Origin: Pseudomonadota bacterium
GTDB lineage: Bacteria > SAR324 > NAC60-12
Assembly (NCBI GenBank): GCA_004213175.1
Contig: SHAT01000003.1
Span: forward strand, 1-64,000
Direction: 5' to 3'
DNA length: 64,000 nucleotides
In this document: positions 15,142 through 52,206 of the stretch, piece after piece
Layout of the letters: each line of letters begins with the position of its first letter
How positions within the stretch are numbered: position 1 is the first letter of the stretch
Position numbers and translations under genes: made by a program
Notes under the pieces: generated by a model
Databases searched by the model: none
Seen by the model: the letters and a program-made list of their open reading frames with translations, nothing else
Told to the model about the DNA's origin: nothing

Positions 15142-15237
15142 TGCAATTCGTTAGGGGTGGGGTTCCTGAACAAGGAGACCGCCTGAGAAAGTCCCTTGGA
15201 ACCTGATCCAGATAATGCTGGCGCAGGAAAACGATTC
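15142..15237 (+). promoter_or_regulatory. TPP riboswitch (THI element)
   Basis: The conserved core is plain: AGGGGTG at 15153-15159, CTGAGA at 15183-15188, then ACCTGATCCAGATAATGC at 15201-15218 and GCGCAGGAAA at 15221-15230. The flanking TCGTT and AACGA (15146-15150 and 15230-15234) close P1. Just after it AAAACG (15228-15233) and CGTTTT (15241-15246) form a 6-bp hairpin that competes with the 3' strand of P1, a likely switching element. It lies about 115 nt ahead of thiB, so thiamine pyrophosphate should repress the transport operon. Confidence 0.95.
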
Positions 15238-15353
15238 TTCCGTTTTGCAGTCTCTGCTACCAATTTCCGGCCATTTGCCTTTCTCCCCCCTAGGATATTG
15301 TCTAAAAGATTTTTTCTGGTTTTGCCGGGGAATTGTAATTATCTGAGAATGTT

Positions 15354-39215: not shown

Positions 39216-40142
39216 TTAAGGTGAGTCCGCAACATACTTTTTAACCCACATGTCATGAGTACTTATTTTTAGATAGCAATAGCTAACCCATTGGGCGAAA
39301 AAAGTATTGCGATGAGAACGCCAGCGATTGAGAGGTTCCATAAAATCAAAATTTACGGGAGGAGGAACGTCGGGATTCTCATGGTCTCGCTTTGCTTCAT
39401 CTGCTAGTCTAGTAGCGTTGTATTCAGGATGCCCAGTATGTGCGATGAAACGGTCATCTGAGGTTGAAAAAATAGAATAGCCGGCTTCTTTCCCGTAGGC
39501 TAGTAATTTCAGTCGGCCATCGTTTTGTGCCTCTTCCATAGCTTCGTCCGGAATTCCAGCATGACGGCTTTGAGGGCAGAAAAATACATCATCTAACTCC
39601 CCTATAATAGGGTGTGCAGGTGCTAGATTTTTCAATTCAAAAACACCAAACAGTTTTTGATCGTAGTTAAATTTGTTTACGCCTTCCAAATAAGCCATTA
39701 CAAATCCAGCCCAGCAGAGCCCAAGTGTGCTGGGAATTGTTTGTCGTGCATGGTGTAAAATTTCATTAATTTCATTCCAGTAATGTACATCTTCAAAATG
39801 GACTGTCTCAACCGGTGCCCCTGTTAAAATCAGACCGTCAAGTGGCTGCTCCCGATTGGCATCCTCATAAGTAACGTAAATGTCATCGACGTGCTGAGGT
39901 TCCCAAGTTTTGTAGTTATGTGATTCCAGACGAATCCAAATCGGTTCCAACTGCAAAACCGAAAGTCCCAGAGGATGGAGAATATTAAACTCATATTTTT
40001 CTCCAAGTGGCATTATATTAAGAATCCCAATACGCATTGGTCGAATATCCTGACGCTCCGCCTGTGAAGGTGGAATCCATCGGATACCATTTTTTTCAAG
40101 GATTGGAACTGCGTGGTAATCGGGAGGTACAATGAGAGTCAT
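39216..40142 (-). CDS. metA: Homoserine O-acyltransferase MetA (predicted acetyl-CoA type)
   Basis: First committed step of methionine synthesis: acylation of homoserine. 308 aa; the catalytic Cys is in LGLCWAGFVMAY, the His and Glu of the triad are in FIAHTGHPEYN. The acyl-specificity loop reads LTGAPVETV: Glu at the position equivalent to residue 111 favours acetyl-CoA, as in the B. cereus enzyme, while Gly/Leu forms as in E. coli use succinyl-CoA. So despite the metA name I expect O-acetylhomoserine. It lies about 260 nt downstream of a SAM-clan riboswitch and should be repressed by S-adenosylmethionine. Confidence 0.93.
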   Translation of the reverse strand: MTLIVPPDYHAVPILEKNGIRWIPPSQAERQDIRPMRIGILNIMPLGEKYEFNILHPLGLSVLQLEPIWIRLESHNYKTWEPQHVDDIYVTYEDANREQPLDGLILTGAPVETVHFEDVHYWNEINEILHHARQTIPSTLGLCWAGFVMAYLEGVNKFNYDQKLFGVFELKNLAPAHPIIGELDDVFFCPQSRHAGIPDEAMEEAQNDGRLKLLAYGKEAGYSIFSTSDDRFIAHTGHPEYNATRLADEAKRDHENPDVPPPVNFDFMEPLNRWRSHRNTFFAQWVSYCYLKISTHDMWVKKYVADSP

Positions 40143-40292
40143 AATCTACTTTCGAAACAATAAGGGAACTTGGTATGAAATTGTAGTAGCTCTAAAAATT
40201 GCGAACATCTCATGATGAATCTCGAAACAGTTTCAAATTGTAATTACTGTAAAAAGTCTTTTTCACATTGTAAAACAAAATATATAGATCAA

Positions 40293-40415: not shown

Positions 40416-40556
40416 AGGCGGGCCAGCACTTTACTCGAATCGAGTCGTATCGATTCCCTTCCGTAAATCTCCGAATGGGCTGGCATTAGCACCTTGATGC
40501 GGATTAAGGATGCTCGACACTTCAAAGGGCCAGATCCCTCTGTGTCATCTGGATAC
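40416..40556 (-). promoter_or_regulatory. SAM riboswitch (SAM-I clan, variant)
   Basis: On the metA strand the two SAM-I/SAM-IV core blocks appear in order: GAGGGATCTGGCCC followed by TTTGAA (40527-40540 and on), GAGCATCC, then AAGGTGCTAATGCC (40482-40495). GACAC/GTGTC and GATG/CATC form the P2-like stem around the first block. After the second block GCCAGC (40479-40484) pairs with GCTGGC (40422-40427), enclosing a perfect 7-bp hairpin GAATCGA/TCGATTC. No normal P1 partner is evident, hence 'variant'. Placement upstream of metA agrees with the ligand. Confidence 0.85.
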
Positions 40557-40568
40557 AAAATTTTATAT

Positions 40569-40630: not shown

Positions 40631-43600
40631 TCAAATTTCAGAGGGACTCATCAGAGCCTGTTTGAGGGATTCCTCAAAGTTTGATTTGAGTAATTTTTCA
40701 TGATCGTCACTAGTAATGTAAAATGTATCGATAACTTGATGTCCAATAGTTGTAATGACGGCCTGCTGAATCGATACTCCCACCCGATCAAATGCACTGA
40801 CCATTTTGTAATAAACCAGGGGGGCGTCTTCTGCAGTTATTTTAATGCGAAGATAATTTTTATCACGTCTCGAAAATTCAGTATTGTCACGTGAATTTCC
40901 TTTCCATACTGGAAAATTATTAGAAGATTCATTATTTGTTTCTTTGACCATGTAGCCTTTTTTATCATCCTCGAGGTACTCCAGTTGAAATTTTGTGTTG
41001 TAGAGAAAGGTCTGAGGCTTTATTTTCAGTGCAGGAGGAGTATTTCTTCTGATGGAAGTTTCCAGTTCCAGCGGAAAAATAACATTGTCCTCTTCTCTTT
41101 TTGAGACTTTCAAATAATAGCAAAAAGCAACTTGACCGCTCGCAAAATTTATTTGGTTGATTTTTGCAGATCCAATGGTAAGGTGCTTTAAATTCAAGGT
41201 GTAGGCGATTCTACTGTGAATCTGTGGCAGGTCATGTACATAAATCAGCAGGGCGTTAAGTTGACCTCTTGCATTGGTGATGACATTTACAATTGCGGGA
41301 CGCTCAAGTTTGTTGAAAATAGTCAGATTCTCCGCAATCATTCCCGGAGAAGAACTCAGCAGGAAACGATTCGGAAATGAAGCAAAAAACCAGTTTATTA
41401 AGGGACTGTATATCTCTGTCAGTGCCACTAAAGTTTCATTACTTAGAGATTGCCGAATTGTGCGGATAAATTTTTCTGTAGTCTTGTCAGTACCAAGTTT
41501 ATCAAGTGAACCCAGCTTAAGGTCCCGCCACAGCACGTGTAATTGATCTTCTGATTTTTCAAGCAGTTTTTTCTCTTTTTTGTTTATCTGCAACAATGGT
41601 TTGAGCAAAACAGAATCTAGGTTTTCACGGAGACTTCTGTTAATCAGTAGATTAATTCGTGTGTCGGATTCAAGGTCATTTTTTTTATTATCCAGGTATG
41701 TGAGAATGAAATCCATAGAATCCTCCTGTTTTTGGGAGGAGCGCATTTCGGAAAAAACGCGGGATGTCTCTTCAAAAAATGTTCTCAAGACGCGTGTTGA
41801 GTGTGCGTTGCTCTCGCTCACAGAAATGTAATCGGAGATGTTGCATAGAAAAAGTAAAATAACATTAATCAGATTGCGGTCTGCAATTTCAAAAAAACTT
41901 TGAAGTGCTTGATCGAAATAGGCTGAAGTTCTGCTGAGTTGTACGACCGTCGTGTGATGAACAATAAGTAGTGATACAAGAGTAAATAATTCCTGGTCTT
42001 CATAGCCAATACGCTCCAGAGCTTTGACTGCAATCGAAGTCCCGGAAACTTCATGATCTGTCTCAGGATCTATTTTCCCTACATCGTGGAACAAGATGCC
42101 CCACTTGAGAGCTAAGATGTGCTTTGGTTCAAGATATTGATATAATTCTTGATAATCAATTTTTAGCCGATCCAGTTCTTTTTGTGTACGATCAAGAGCA
42201 TTCAACGTATGAGTGCAAACTGGGTGTTGATGATAAGCCAGGTTTCGGAGTAAAAAACGCATCTTATTTGTTTCTGGAATGAAACAACCCATCAAAGTCC
42301 TCGGCTGGTTTATCTCATTAATTGGCTCACATATATCAAACATGATTCGCCAGGCATTTGCCGCAAATGGTGTCAACATAAGTTTTGTGAAACGCTCTGC
42401 AATCTGTGTACGGTGAGCATAGATCACATCCGGAGTGATGATCCTGATCAGATCCGCCATTTCGTCTTTGAGGTCAAAAGACAAATCATACTCCGACTGT
42501 CCCACATATTCAAATAGTTCGAGCAATGCAGTTGGATCGTTGAAGATCAGTGATATCGGAACCTGAGGCATACCTTCAAGTGCGTTTACCTCAAGGATTT
42601 GACGCTGACCGAGATGGACTACAACCTGGAAATTTGAAAAAGTTCTCACTATTGTGCGGTCTAATAGGCGTTGTAAAATGGCTTGTGAAAGATCCTGAAT
42701 ATAATTCACCATCTGAAGACGATAGCGGTCAAAAACGTCAATAGTCTGGAAACGTTTTTTCTTAAGCAGATAAAGCTGTTCGGTTGCGTCATTAATGATA
42801 TTAATCTGGATGTCTTTTTCAGTAAGTCCTCTTTCACGTGCTTCATCATCAATATGAAACTTCTCTGCAGTGGCAGCAAAGTTGCGTAAGTCATATAAAA
42901 ATTCAAGAGCCTGGCAAAGTTTGAAACCCTGTCTTGGTGAAATTATACGTTTTTGAATCAACAGAGCTAGCATATCTGCAGTTTGATTTGGAAAAACACC
43001 AAAAGTCGCGGCTGCCAGCCAAAGCGGAATTTGTATAGATCGTAAGCCACCCTGATCTTCCTTGAGATTCATTTCACTCAGTCCGGGTACTGTACGATCA
43101 TGGTAATCTCTTATTTGGCTTAGGACGAAGGTTTCATAGGGTAGGATTTGAAAAAATCTACGTTTTAAAGCATTTGCTAAATTATTACTGCCCAACAGAA
43201 CTCTGCTTTCTAGGATGGCTGGTATGGTATGAATTGCGGAGGGCTCTTTAAAACGTGATAAATCTTCATTTAATTCAAAGTATTGGTGTGCCGTTTCTAT
43301 TCCCGAGATTCGTAGTAAATGCTCAATATGTATGATGAATTGCCTGCAAATCTCCGCTTCTCCCGAACTTAACTGATGAGTCTCTAAGCAATAACCGAGA
43401 TCCCTATCTGAAGCGAAACTGAGTTCAGCGCGTCCGTATCCTCCTCTGGCAAAGATCACCAAATGATTGAGTAAAAAATCACGTGTAAATTCAGCTTGCT
43501 TAGCAAGTGGGATTTGTTCTTTTAGGTCATGCAGGCGTTTGTTGAGGGCTGTGTTATCCTGAGTCAGATCTGCTTCAATACTGTTGTAATATTTCAGCAA

Positions 43601-44089
43601 CTGTCTTTGTTCAGGATCTTCTGGGTTTGATTCAATGTTTTCTATTTTTTTTTGCGTCAGTGTGAGTTTTTTCAGATTTTTGGGTAATGTCTTTTTTTTG
43701 AATTGTGACTCTTTTTTGAGATCTTCAATAATTCTTTCTTTGAGGATTGGCAAATCTTTGAACGCAAATTCGAAAGCAGTATGGATGATACTATCTAAGA
43801 GGCGTGTATTTTGAGCAAGTATGTCAAAAGAACTTTCTGTCCTCAAGCTCTTGTCCACAATTATTTTATACTGCTGCTCATAATATTTTGCAGTGACTGT
43901 TGCAAAAACTTTTTCACGGACTTCTAGGTATTCCAGTGTCTTGCTATTCTCGATATGCTGATGTGTCGAGGCATTAACAAGTTTTTTTTGTAAAGCTTTT
44001 TTATGTTTTTCGAGTTTTTGTGGGTTCTCTGTGAAGATGAAAGGAGATAGAAAGGGAAAATTTTCAATTGGAGAAAAATTAGTATCCAT
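40631..44089 (-). CDS. glnD: [Protein-PII] uridylyltransferase GlnD-like, enlarged
   Basis: Bifunctional PII uridylyl-transferase/removing enzyme that senses glutamine. The 1152-aa product is well above the usual 850-950. Order: about 200 extra charged, helical residues; nucleotidyltransferase core FARGGYGRAELSFASDRDLG (about residue 215); GlnD helical middle; HD domain with FHDVGKIDPETDHEVSG (about residue 690); C-terminal ACT-type sensor segment (LRIKITAEDAPLVYYKMVSAFDRVGV). Key catalytic motifs look intact. No glnB or glnK in the window. It follows ruvB on the same strand after a 160-nt gap with a nested hairpin. Confidence 0.88.
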   Translation of the reverse strand: MDTNFSPIENFPFLSPFIFTENPQKLEKHKKALQKKLVNASTHQHIENSKTLEYLEVREKVFATVTAKYYEQQYKIIVDKSLRTESSFDILAQNTRLLDSIIHTAFEFAFKDLPILKERIIEDLKKESQFKKKTLPKNLKKLTLTQKKIENIESNPEDPEQRQLLKYYNSIEADLTQDNTALNKRLHDLKEQIPLAKQAEFTRDFLLNHLVIFARGGYGRAELSFASDRDLGYCLETHQLSSGEAEICRQFIIHIEHLLRISGIETAHQYFELNEDLSRFKEPSAIHTIPAILESRVLLGSNNLANALKRRFFQILPYETFVLSQIRDYHDRTVPGLSEMNLKEDQGGLRSIQIPLWLAAATFGVFPNQTADMLALLIQKRIISPRQGFKLCQALEFLYDLRNFAATAEKFHIDDEARERGLTEKDIQINIINDATEQLYLLKKKRFQTIDVFDRYRLQMVNYIQDLSQAILQRLLDRTIVRTFSNFQVVVHLGQRQILEVNALEGMPQVPISLIFNDPTALLELFEYVGQSEYDLSFDLKDEMADLIRIITPDVIYAHRTQIAERFTKLMLTPFAANAWRIMFDICEPINEINQPRTLMGCFIPETNKMRFLLRNLAYHQHPVCTHTLNALDRTQKELDRLKIDYQELYQYLEPKHILALKWGILFHDVGKIDPETDHEVSGTSIAVKALERIGYEDQELFTLVSLLIVHHTTVVQLSRTSAYFDQALQSFFEIADRNLINVILLFLCNISDYISVSESNAHSTRVLRTFFEETSRVFSEMRSSQKQEDSMDFILTYLDNKKNDLESDTRINLLINRSLRENLDSVLLKPLLQINKKEKKLLEKSEDQLHVLWRDLKLGSLDKLGTDKTTEKFIRTIRQSLSNETLVALTEIYSPLINWFFASFPNRFLLSSSPGMIAENLTIFNKLERPAIVNVITNARGQLNALLIYVHDLPQIHSRIAYTLNLKHLTIGSAKINQINFASGQVAFCYYLKVSKREEDNVIFPLELETSIRRNTPPALKIKPQTFLYNTKFQLEYLEDDKKGYMVKETNNESSNNFPVWKGNSRDNTEFSRRDKNYLRIKITAEDAPLVYYKMVSAFDRVGVSIQQAVITTIGHQVIDTFYITSDDHEKLLKSNFEESLKQALMSPSEI

Positions 44090-49189: not shown

Positions 49190-49385
49190 CTTCGGTTTTT
49201 GACGGCAGTGTTTTAGGTAACACACTTCTATAGAAAAAGACTGAAAGCTGTTTCTATTTACAACAAAGGTCGAGATCAAATTGAAAAAGACAGTGGACGG
49301 GCACAGCAGAAAATTGCTTTGTCACTTTTTGAAGCTGTGTCTCGGCAGGGGGTGAATTAAGCCGTTAGGCCCCTACTGTCTTAGA
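49190..49385 (-). promoter_or_regulatory. Ribosomal protein L10 leader
   Basis: The 263-nt gap between rplA and rplJ contains, on the minus strand, GACAGTAGGGGCC, then CACCCCCTGCCGAGACAC, the paired arms and GCCGAGA core that mark L10 leaders in many bacteria. Autogenous control by L10(L12)4 is the established role. Confidence 0.8.
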
Positions 49386-49414
49386 CAATAAAACTAAAAA
49401 AACTATTTCAGATA

Positions 49415-51651: not shown

Positions 51652-51727
51652 TGGCAGGGCAGACAGGGGTCGAACCTGCGACCTTCGGTTTTGGAGACCG
51701 ATGCTCTACCAACTGAGCTACTGCCCT
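51652..51727 (-). tRNA. tRNA-Trp (anticodon CCA)
   Basis: 76 nt with 7-bp acceptor AGGGCAG/CTGCCCT, anticodon loop CTCCAAA, T-loop TTCGACC and encoded 3' CCA. Lies between rpmG and secE as in most bacteria. Confidence 0.97.
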
Positions 51728-51751
51728 GTCAGGACGCAAAAATTAATTTTT

Positions 51752-51901
51752 TTATTTCGTTTCTTTATGCAAAGTATGTTTTCGATCCCACCTACAGTAT
51801 TTACGTACTTCCATACGCTCTGTTTTCAATTTCTTATTTCGGGAAGCCGTATAATTTCGTCGCTTGCACTCAGTGCATTCTAGGTGAATCGTGTCTCTCA
51901 T
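51752..51901 (-). CDS. rpmG: 50S ribosomal protein L33
   Basis: 49 aa from ATG 51901: [23 protein letters not shown], then [15 protein letters not shown]. The first CxxC pair of the zinc-binding form is present; in the second pair only the first Cys remains and the last is Asp (CRWD). A longer in-frame reading that runs into the tRNA-Thr gene is not the real start. Confidence 0.95.
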
Positions 51902-51933
51902 GATTTCTGTTTTAAAAACTATGATAATTTTTT

Positions 51934-52008
51934 TGGAGCCTGAGAGCAGGATTGAACTGCCGACCTCTTCCTTACCAAGGAAACGCTCTACCACTGAGCT
52001 ACCCAGGC
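51934..52008 (-). tRNA. tRNA-Thr (anticodon GGT)
   Basis: 75 nt, acceptor GCCTGGG/CTCAGGC with one G-U pair, anticodon loop TTGGTAA, T-loop TTCAATC, discriminator T and encoded CCA. Between tRNA-Tyr and rpmG. Confidence 0.96.
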
Positions 52009-52041
52009 TCAAAACTCACACCGTATAAGCTCTTCAAACTG

Positions 52042-52126
52042 TGGTGGGGAGAGAAGGATTCGAACCTTCGAAGGCGAAGCCGTCAGATTTACAGTCTGAT
52101 CCCGTTGACCACTTGGGTATCTCCCC
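52042..52126 (-). tRNA. tRNA-Tyr (anticodon GTA)
   Basis: 85 nt class II tRNA with acceptor GGGGAGA/TCTCCCC, anticodon loop CTGTAAA, long variable arm (about CGGCTTCGCC), T-loop TTCGAAT and encoded CCA. Confidence 0.97.
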
Positions 52127-52130
52127 ATGC

Positions 52131-52206
52131 TGGAGCTGGCAATAGGACTTGAACCTACAACCTGCTGATTACAAATCAGCTGCTCTACCAATTGAGCTAT
52201 GCCAGC
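52131..52206 (-). tRNA. tRNA-Thr (anticodon TGT)
   Basis: 76 nt, acceptor GCTGGCA/TGCCAGC, anticodon loop TTTGTAA, T-loop TTCAAGT and encoded CCA. First gene of the tRNA-Thr/Tyr/Thr cluster, 4 nt ahead of tRNA-Tyr. Confidence 0.97.

Follow-up and report, generated by a model that had tools for sequence, protein, structure and literature searches.

SAM-I riboswitches are RNA sensors of S-adenosylmethionine (SAM). The SAM-I, SAM-I/IV and SAM-IV families have a common binding core and differ in the peripheral elements supporting it, PK-1 and P4 versus P5 and PK-2. P4 is absent from SAM-IV, and both PK-1 and the internal loop of P2 are absent from SAM-I/IV (PMC6890682, PMC2864571). In SAM-IV, the P3 loop base-pairs with the strand following P5 (PMC6890682). 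The Rfam consensus of SAM-I/IV consists, from the P1 3′ strand (GAUGC) onward, of one nucleotide, a 4-bp P5 with a 4-nt loop and an A-rich sequence. Highly conserved residues of SAM-I have also been listed, of which A6, U7, A87, U88, G11, C44, A45, C47, U57 and G58 lie at the SAM site (PMC3764141).

The SAM-I element upstream of metA

We analysed a stretch of 64,000 nucleotides (the window) from a marine SAR324 bacterium; its close relatives are SAR324 cluster bacteria. The core blocks of SAM-I/IV type that the initial annotation had pointed out (GAGGGAUCUGGCCC...GAGCAUCC and AAGGUGC) do occur upstream of metA on the minus strand. The search with Rfam covariance models was carried out, and RF00162 (SAM-I) gave a full-length match (model positions 1-108) on the minus strand at 40559-40444, with 47.7 bits against a cut-off of 44.4. 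This is the sole SAM-I match in the source genome. The models of SAM-IV (RF00634) and SAM-I/IV (RF01725) did produce hits in other genomes, but none in the source genome, even with the threshold relaxed to E <= 10. The element is situated between a gene for a GlnD-like protein (40631-44089) and metA (39216..40142), all on the minus strand, with 302 nt between the aptamer and the metA start. The regulated gene metA encodes a homoserine O-acyltransferase (PF04204 HTS, E 2.4e-87), whose score against the NCBIfam MetA model is under the curated cut-off. The GlnD-like protein (1152 aa) scores far under the NCBIfam cut-offs for PII uridylyltransferase. Elsewhere in the window, we noted a TPP riboswitch on the plus strand (15143-15246, 65.9 bits, over the Rfam cut-off) and, on the minus strand, a ribosomal protein L10 leader (49274-49403, 45.3 bits against a cut-off of 44) with four clustered tRNA genes upstream of it (51655-52206).

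Of 17 genomes of the window's genus, 15 contain a match to RF00162 above its cut-off and one more falls just under it; three genomes from two other genera also have a match above the cut-off. Related leaders were aligned and tested for covariation. The alignment (A2) holds 19 SAR324 sequences from three genera, 16 of them from the window's genus, L001 being the window sequence; 18 of the 19 pass the cut-off and one (L020, 36.7 bits) falls under it. Changes on both sides of a pair were found in P1, P2a and P4. Although the initial annotation stated that a terminal P1 could not be found, the Rfam alignment shows a helix between the 5′ end and GAUACGA (40451-40445), which is kept in 19 genomes of three genera. 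The helix is formed by UGUAUC (40552..40557) and GAUACG (40446..40451). P1 is paired in 99% of the cells across A2, and columns 6/113 are occupied by UA, UG or CG and are never unpaired. P1 had been overlooked because its 3′ strand falls inside a stretch that was read as a 7-bp hairpin.

The remaining parts of a SAM-I aptamer were identified from the Rfam alignment and A2. The P2a/kink-turn/P2b hairpin (GACAC..GGG AUCUGG CCC..GUGUC) spans 40516..40546, and one pair of P2a is doubly changed from AU to GC. The CUGG in the P2b loop (40530..40533) pairs with CCAG in J3/4 (40480..40483) to form PK-1, which is invariant in all 19 sequences; the CCAG strand had previously been assigned to the 5′ side of a long arm. 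P3 (40489..40513) carries invariant SAM-contact residues, and P4 (40456..40479) consists of seven pairs, five of which display changes on both sides. When the residues listed in PMC3764141 were mapped onto A2, all of those at the SAM site proved invariant in the three genera. Departures from the list were G in place of U4, C in place of A61 in L019, and replacement of the kink-turn residue G19 in L009, L011 and L020. In column 51 of A2, which corresponds to SAM-I A46 next to the SAM adenine contact and is absent from that list, we observed A only in L019, the other 18 sequences having U or G there. The departures at U4, A61 (L019), G19 and A46 account for the modest RF00162 score of 47.7 bits, compared with 70-94 for typical SAM-I elements elsewhere. 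Membership in SAM-IV or SAM-I/IV was ruled out, as neither model matched and as P4, PK-1 and the P2 internal loop are all present. Judged from its sequence, the metA-leader RNA is a genuine member of the SAM-I class, and we infer that it binds SAM. The proposal that it is a SAM-I/IV variant or an undescribed architecture thus held with regard to the SAM clan and an unusual architecture, but the RNA scores as SAM-I, its P1 is normal and the long arm on which the proposal drew is not conserved.

A conserved extension downstream of P1

Conservation in the 19 relatives does not end with P1 but 22 nt beyond it, so that the whole conserved RNA, the SAM-I aptamer plus a 3′ extension, occupies 40424..40559 on the minus strand. 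The 22-nt block follows P1 immediately and reads GACUC-loop-GAGUAAAGUGCUG. In the window's genus it takes the form G-ACUC-GAUUC-GAGU-AAA-GUGCUG, and in the two other genera it begins G-ACUC-GAAG-GAGU-AAA. Mean pairwise identity in A2 was 83.5% for the aptamer, 86.5% for the next 22 nt and 48.6% for the following 60 nt. Between genera, the respective values were 72%, 69% and 23%, and shuffled sequences gave 27% over all pairs. The unusual feature of this RNA is the extension, which lies within the region originally annotated (40416-40556) and had gone unrecognised there. These results suggest that, in the SAR324 group, the Rfam SAM model ends before the functional RNA does.

The first part of the extension can form a 4-bp hairpin, P5 (ACUC-GAUUC-GAGU, 40433..40445, minus strand), directly after P1. 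All four pairs are present in all 19 sequences, with a loop of GAUUC or GAAG depending on the genus. Since the stem ACUC/GAGU never varies in A2, P5 provides no covariation; its conservation nevertheless indicates that the hairpin is very probably real. The position and size of P5 match those of P5 in the Rfam SAM-I/IV consensus.

We then considered the strand GUGCUG (40424..40429), which follows P5 and the AAA linker, as the 3′ half of a PK-2 with CCGCAU in the P3 loop (40497..40502). Both strands were assigned by complementarity scoring, the loop strand also with A2, and the register was calibrated on SAM-IV and SAM-I/IV. When 150 windows of the leader were ranked by complementarity to the P3 loop, the stretch after P5 came first or scored at most 0.1 less than the first. 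If the loop was taken with slack, the score was 11.6 versus 9.0 (sd 0.9), and with the inner loop it was 10.9 versus 7.6 (sd 0.7). As a yardstick, four SAM-IV and three SAM-I/IV members scored 11-20.8, except for one that failed with a score of 6. In SAM-IV, the PK-2 strand is found at the same 3-nt offset after P5. The predicted PK-2 is shortest in L009 (3 bp) and longest in L011, L003, L005, L008 and L010 (7-9 bp), and the sister species L011 displays a perfect 7-bp helix (UUCGGCA/UGCCGAA). On the other hand, only three consecutive pairs are found in the proposed register in L009 and L019, 11 of the 19 sequences cannot form pair 60/136, and the 3′ strand is also able to pair with GCCAGC. Loops paired with their own tails scored 11.6 against 11.1 for species-swapped pairs, a small gain (same-permutation shuffle, P 0.036). 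All sequences compared, 19 in number, are related and belong to one family in one phylum. We regard PK-2 between the P3 loop and the tail as moderately supported and quite likely.

Switching, read-out and alternative readings

These features raised the possibility that the functional part of this SAM-I (S-box) riboswitch extends beyond P1, combining P1, P2 with a kink-turn, P3, P4 and PK-1 with a PK-2 subdomain of the type found in SAM-IV and SAM-I/IV. The subdomain would consist of a 4-bp P5 that follows P1 and, beyond an A-rich linker, a strand pairing with the P3 loop. We consider this reading to be probable. SAM binding would stabilize P1 and hence P5 and PK-2. Without SAM, in the window's genus, an alternative anti-P1 hairpin in the J4/1-P1-P5 stretch (GAAUCGA-UACGAC-UCGAUUC, 40437..40456, minus strand) may take up the 3′ strand of P1 together with half of P5; its formation excludes both P1 and P5. 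The SAM-bound form would presumably lower the expression of metA, and ancestrally that of metY-metA, when SAM is plentiful.

The anti-P1 hairpin corresponds to the 7-bp hairpin GAAUCGA/UCGAUUC of the initial annotation, which survives as a possible alternative fold, complete in 14 of the 16 sequences of the genus, but is broken in the two other genera. It also underlies the view that the RNA is an ordinary SAM-I riboswitch, in which the block after P1 serves solely as an expression platform switching between anti-P1 and P5, and the P3 loop takes part in no pseudoknot. The 6-7 bp of anti-P1 in most of the genus, its predicted stability (about -8.1 kcal/mol compared with -2.0 for P5 alone) and the thin covariation of PK-2 are in accordance with such a platform. 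However, in both other genera only 3-4 of the 7 pairs (5 of 6 in a shorter form) can be formed, whereas P5 and the strand following it are kept, and a platform alone gives no reason why, out of 150 windows, the segment following P5 should be the best match to the P3 loop. We consider this explanation rather unlikely.

A different SAM-free state would arise if GCUGGC captured the PK-1 strand GCCAGC, opening PK-1 and P4. This long arm, proposed in the initial annotation, can indeed be drawn, as it occurs in the minimum-energy fold of the window sequence and 5-6 of its 6 outer pairs can form in most of the genus. The energy of that fold, however, is no better than that of shuffled sequences (z -1.2). 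The outer arm GCCAGC/GCUGGC is perfect in 5 of the 19 sequences and retains 1-5 of 6 pairs in the others (3 in L011 and 1 in L019), its partner strand varies among GCUGG, GCCGG and GCAGG without a matching change, and the inner UUUAC is confined to the window sequence (0 of 18 others). As a conserved structure the long arm was ruled out, since it decays across the relatives and its 5′ strand is explained by PK-1; as a SAM-free state we find it very improbable. Still more remote is the idea that the low score (47.7 bits) and the missing platform reflect a decaying riboswitch whose regulatory role was lost after deletion of metY. Replacement of the kink-turn G in L009, L011 and L020 and a metY relic in the leader would agree with decay, but the SAM-site residues are invariant in three genera and P1, P2a and P4 display compensatory changes, whereas the flanks are at chance level between genera.

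The metY relic deserves comment. In the genome designated G004 (L037), the riboswitch is followed by metY, which encodes a Cys/Met PLP enzyme, and then by metA; an intact metY is also found in L018. The leader of the sister L013 is 77% identical over 43 nt to the start of intact metY (E 9e-5), with a weaker resemblance in L016. By eye, remnants were also recognized in L012 and in the window, where the first ~43 nt of the lost gene can be placed at 40171..40213 (minus strand). We infer that metY was lost from between the riboswitch and metA in the subclade of the window, which drew metA close to the riboswitch; the deletion would account for part of the long metA leader.

Returning to the SAM-I riboswitch with a P5/PK-2 extension, we searched for its read-out. 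No intrinsic terminator was found near the aptamer in the window, none was conserved among the relatives, and no conserved start codon was seen near the extension among them. A short leader ORF beginning with GUG after the extension was discarded, as inspection by eye indicated that its start codon is not kept in the other genera (GAG, GCG). Complementarity to GAGUAAAG close to the start of metA, also inspected by eye, was seen in single genomes only and was rejected as a conserved element. Given that no terminator was found near the aptamer in the window and that metA starts 113-367 nt downstream of the aptamer among the relatives, the extension is unlikely to mask the ribosome site of metA directly. 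Over the 80 nt after the element, all 18 leaders contain more C than G, which fits Rho-dependent termination in the C-richer leader but does not show it; such termination, or a diverged downstream platform, is our guess for the read-out.

Distribution and relation to known SAM riboswitches

Among about 70 SAM-I RNAs from other genomes (a domain sample, with tails judged by eye), none displayed an A-linked short hairpin directly after P1, and most carried an intrinsic terminator there. The RNA L100 has a GC-rich hairpin after P1 without the A-linker. By eye, a member of another SAR324 family (L002) is a plain SAM-I followed by a terminator-like hairpin. As these RNAs do not have the extension, it seems to be restricted to three genera within a single SAR324 family. 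No P5/PK-2 hybrid from other phyla was found among 383 genomes searched with RF00162 or 291 genomes of another phylum in the R1 search. The aptamer pattern had no match in viral contigs. The P5 pattern gave 16 matches there; the best model scores of these contigs were 11-22 bits over 42-67 nt only, and we took them to reflect the shared hairpin. A small genome, G466, contains five RNAs (L161-L165) that match both the SAM-I and SAM-I/IV models and are possible clan intermediates.

To our knowledge, no SAM RNA combining P4, PK-1, P5 and PK-2 has been known. The RNA would belong to SAM-I and carry a PK-2 subdomain of SAM-IV type. We did not find this combination in the literature searched, which did not include the founding SAM-IV and SAM-I/IV papers. 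We see an even chance that the SAR324 RNA represents a fourth SAM-clan architecture uniting all four elements, an evolutionary or structural intermediate linking SAM-I with SAM-IV and SAM-I/IV. If so, the two sets of supports would be compatible on one core, and nature would have supplied a test case for a connection between the families through gain and loss of modules.

Like SAM-IXcc of the Xanthomonas met operon (PMC7270179), the SAR324 RNA is a SAM-I member in a Gram-negative bacterium with a non-classical platform and a methionine operon. The SAM-IXcc platform, however, covers the SD sequence and AUG (PMC7270179), whereas metA in SAR324 begins well past the aptamer. With SAM-I (RF00162) in general, it has in common P1, P2 with its internal loop and GA motif, P3, P4, PK-1, the SAM-contact residues and a downstream methionine gene. 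It differs in having U, G or A at A46, a G-C for a U-A pair in P1 and the added P5 and putative PK-2 strand, and in having no intrinsic terminator right after P1. With SAM-I/IV (RF01725), it shares P1 of GCAUC/GAUGC (in L004 and L007), the single nucleotide, the 4-bp P5, the A-rich linker and a strand predicted to pair with the P3 loop, but it has both PK-1 and the P2 internal loop. With SAM-IV (RF00634), it would share PK-1, P5 and PK-2, the PK-2 strand beginning 3 nt past P5 in both, and it differs in possessing P4.
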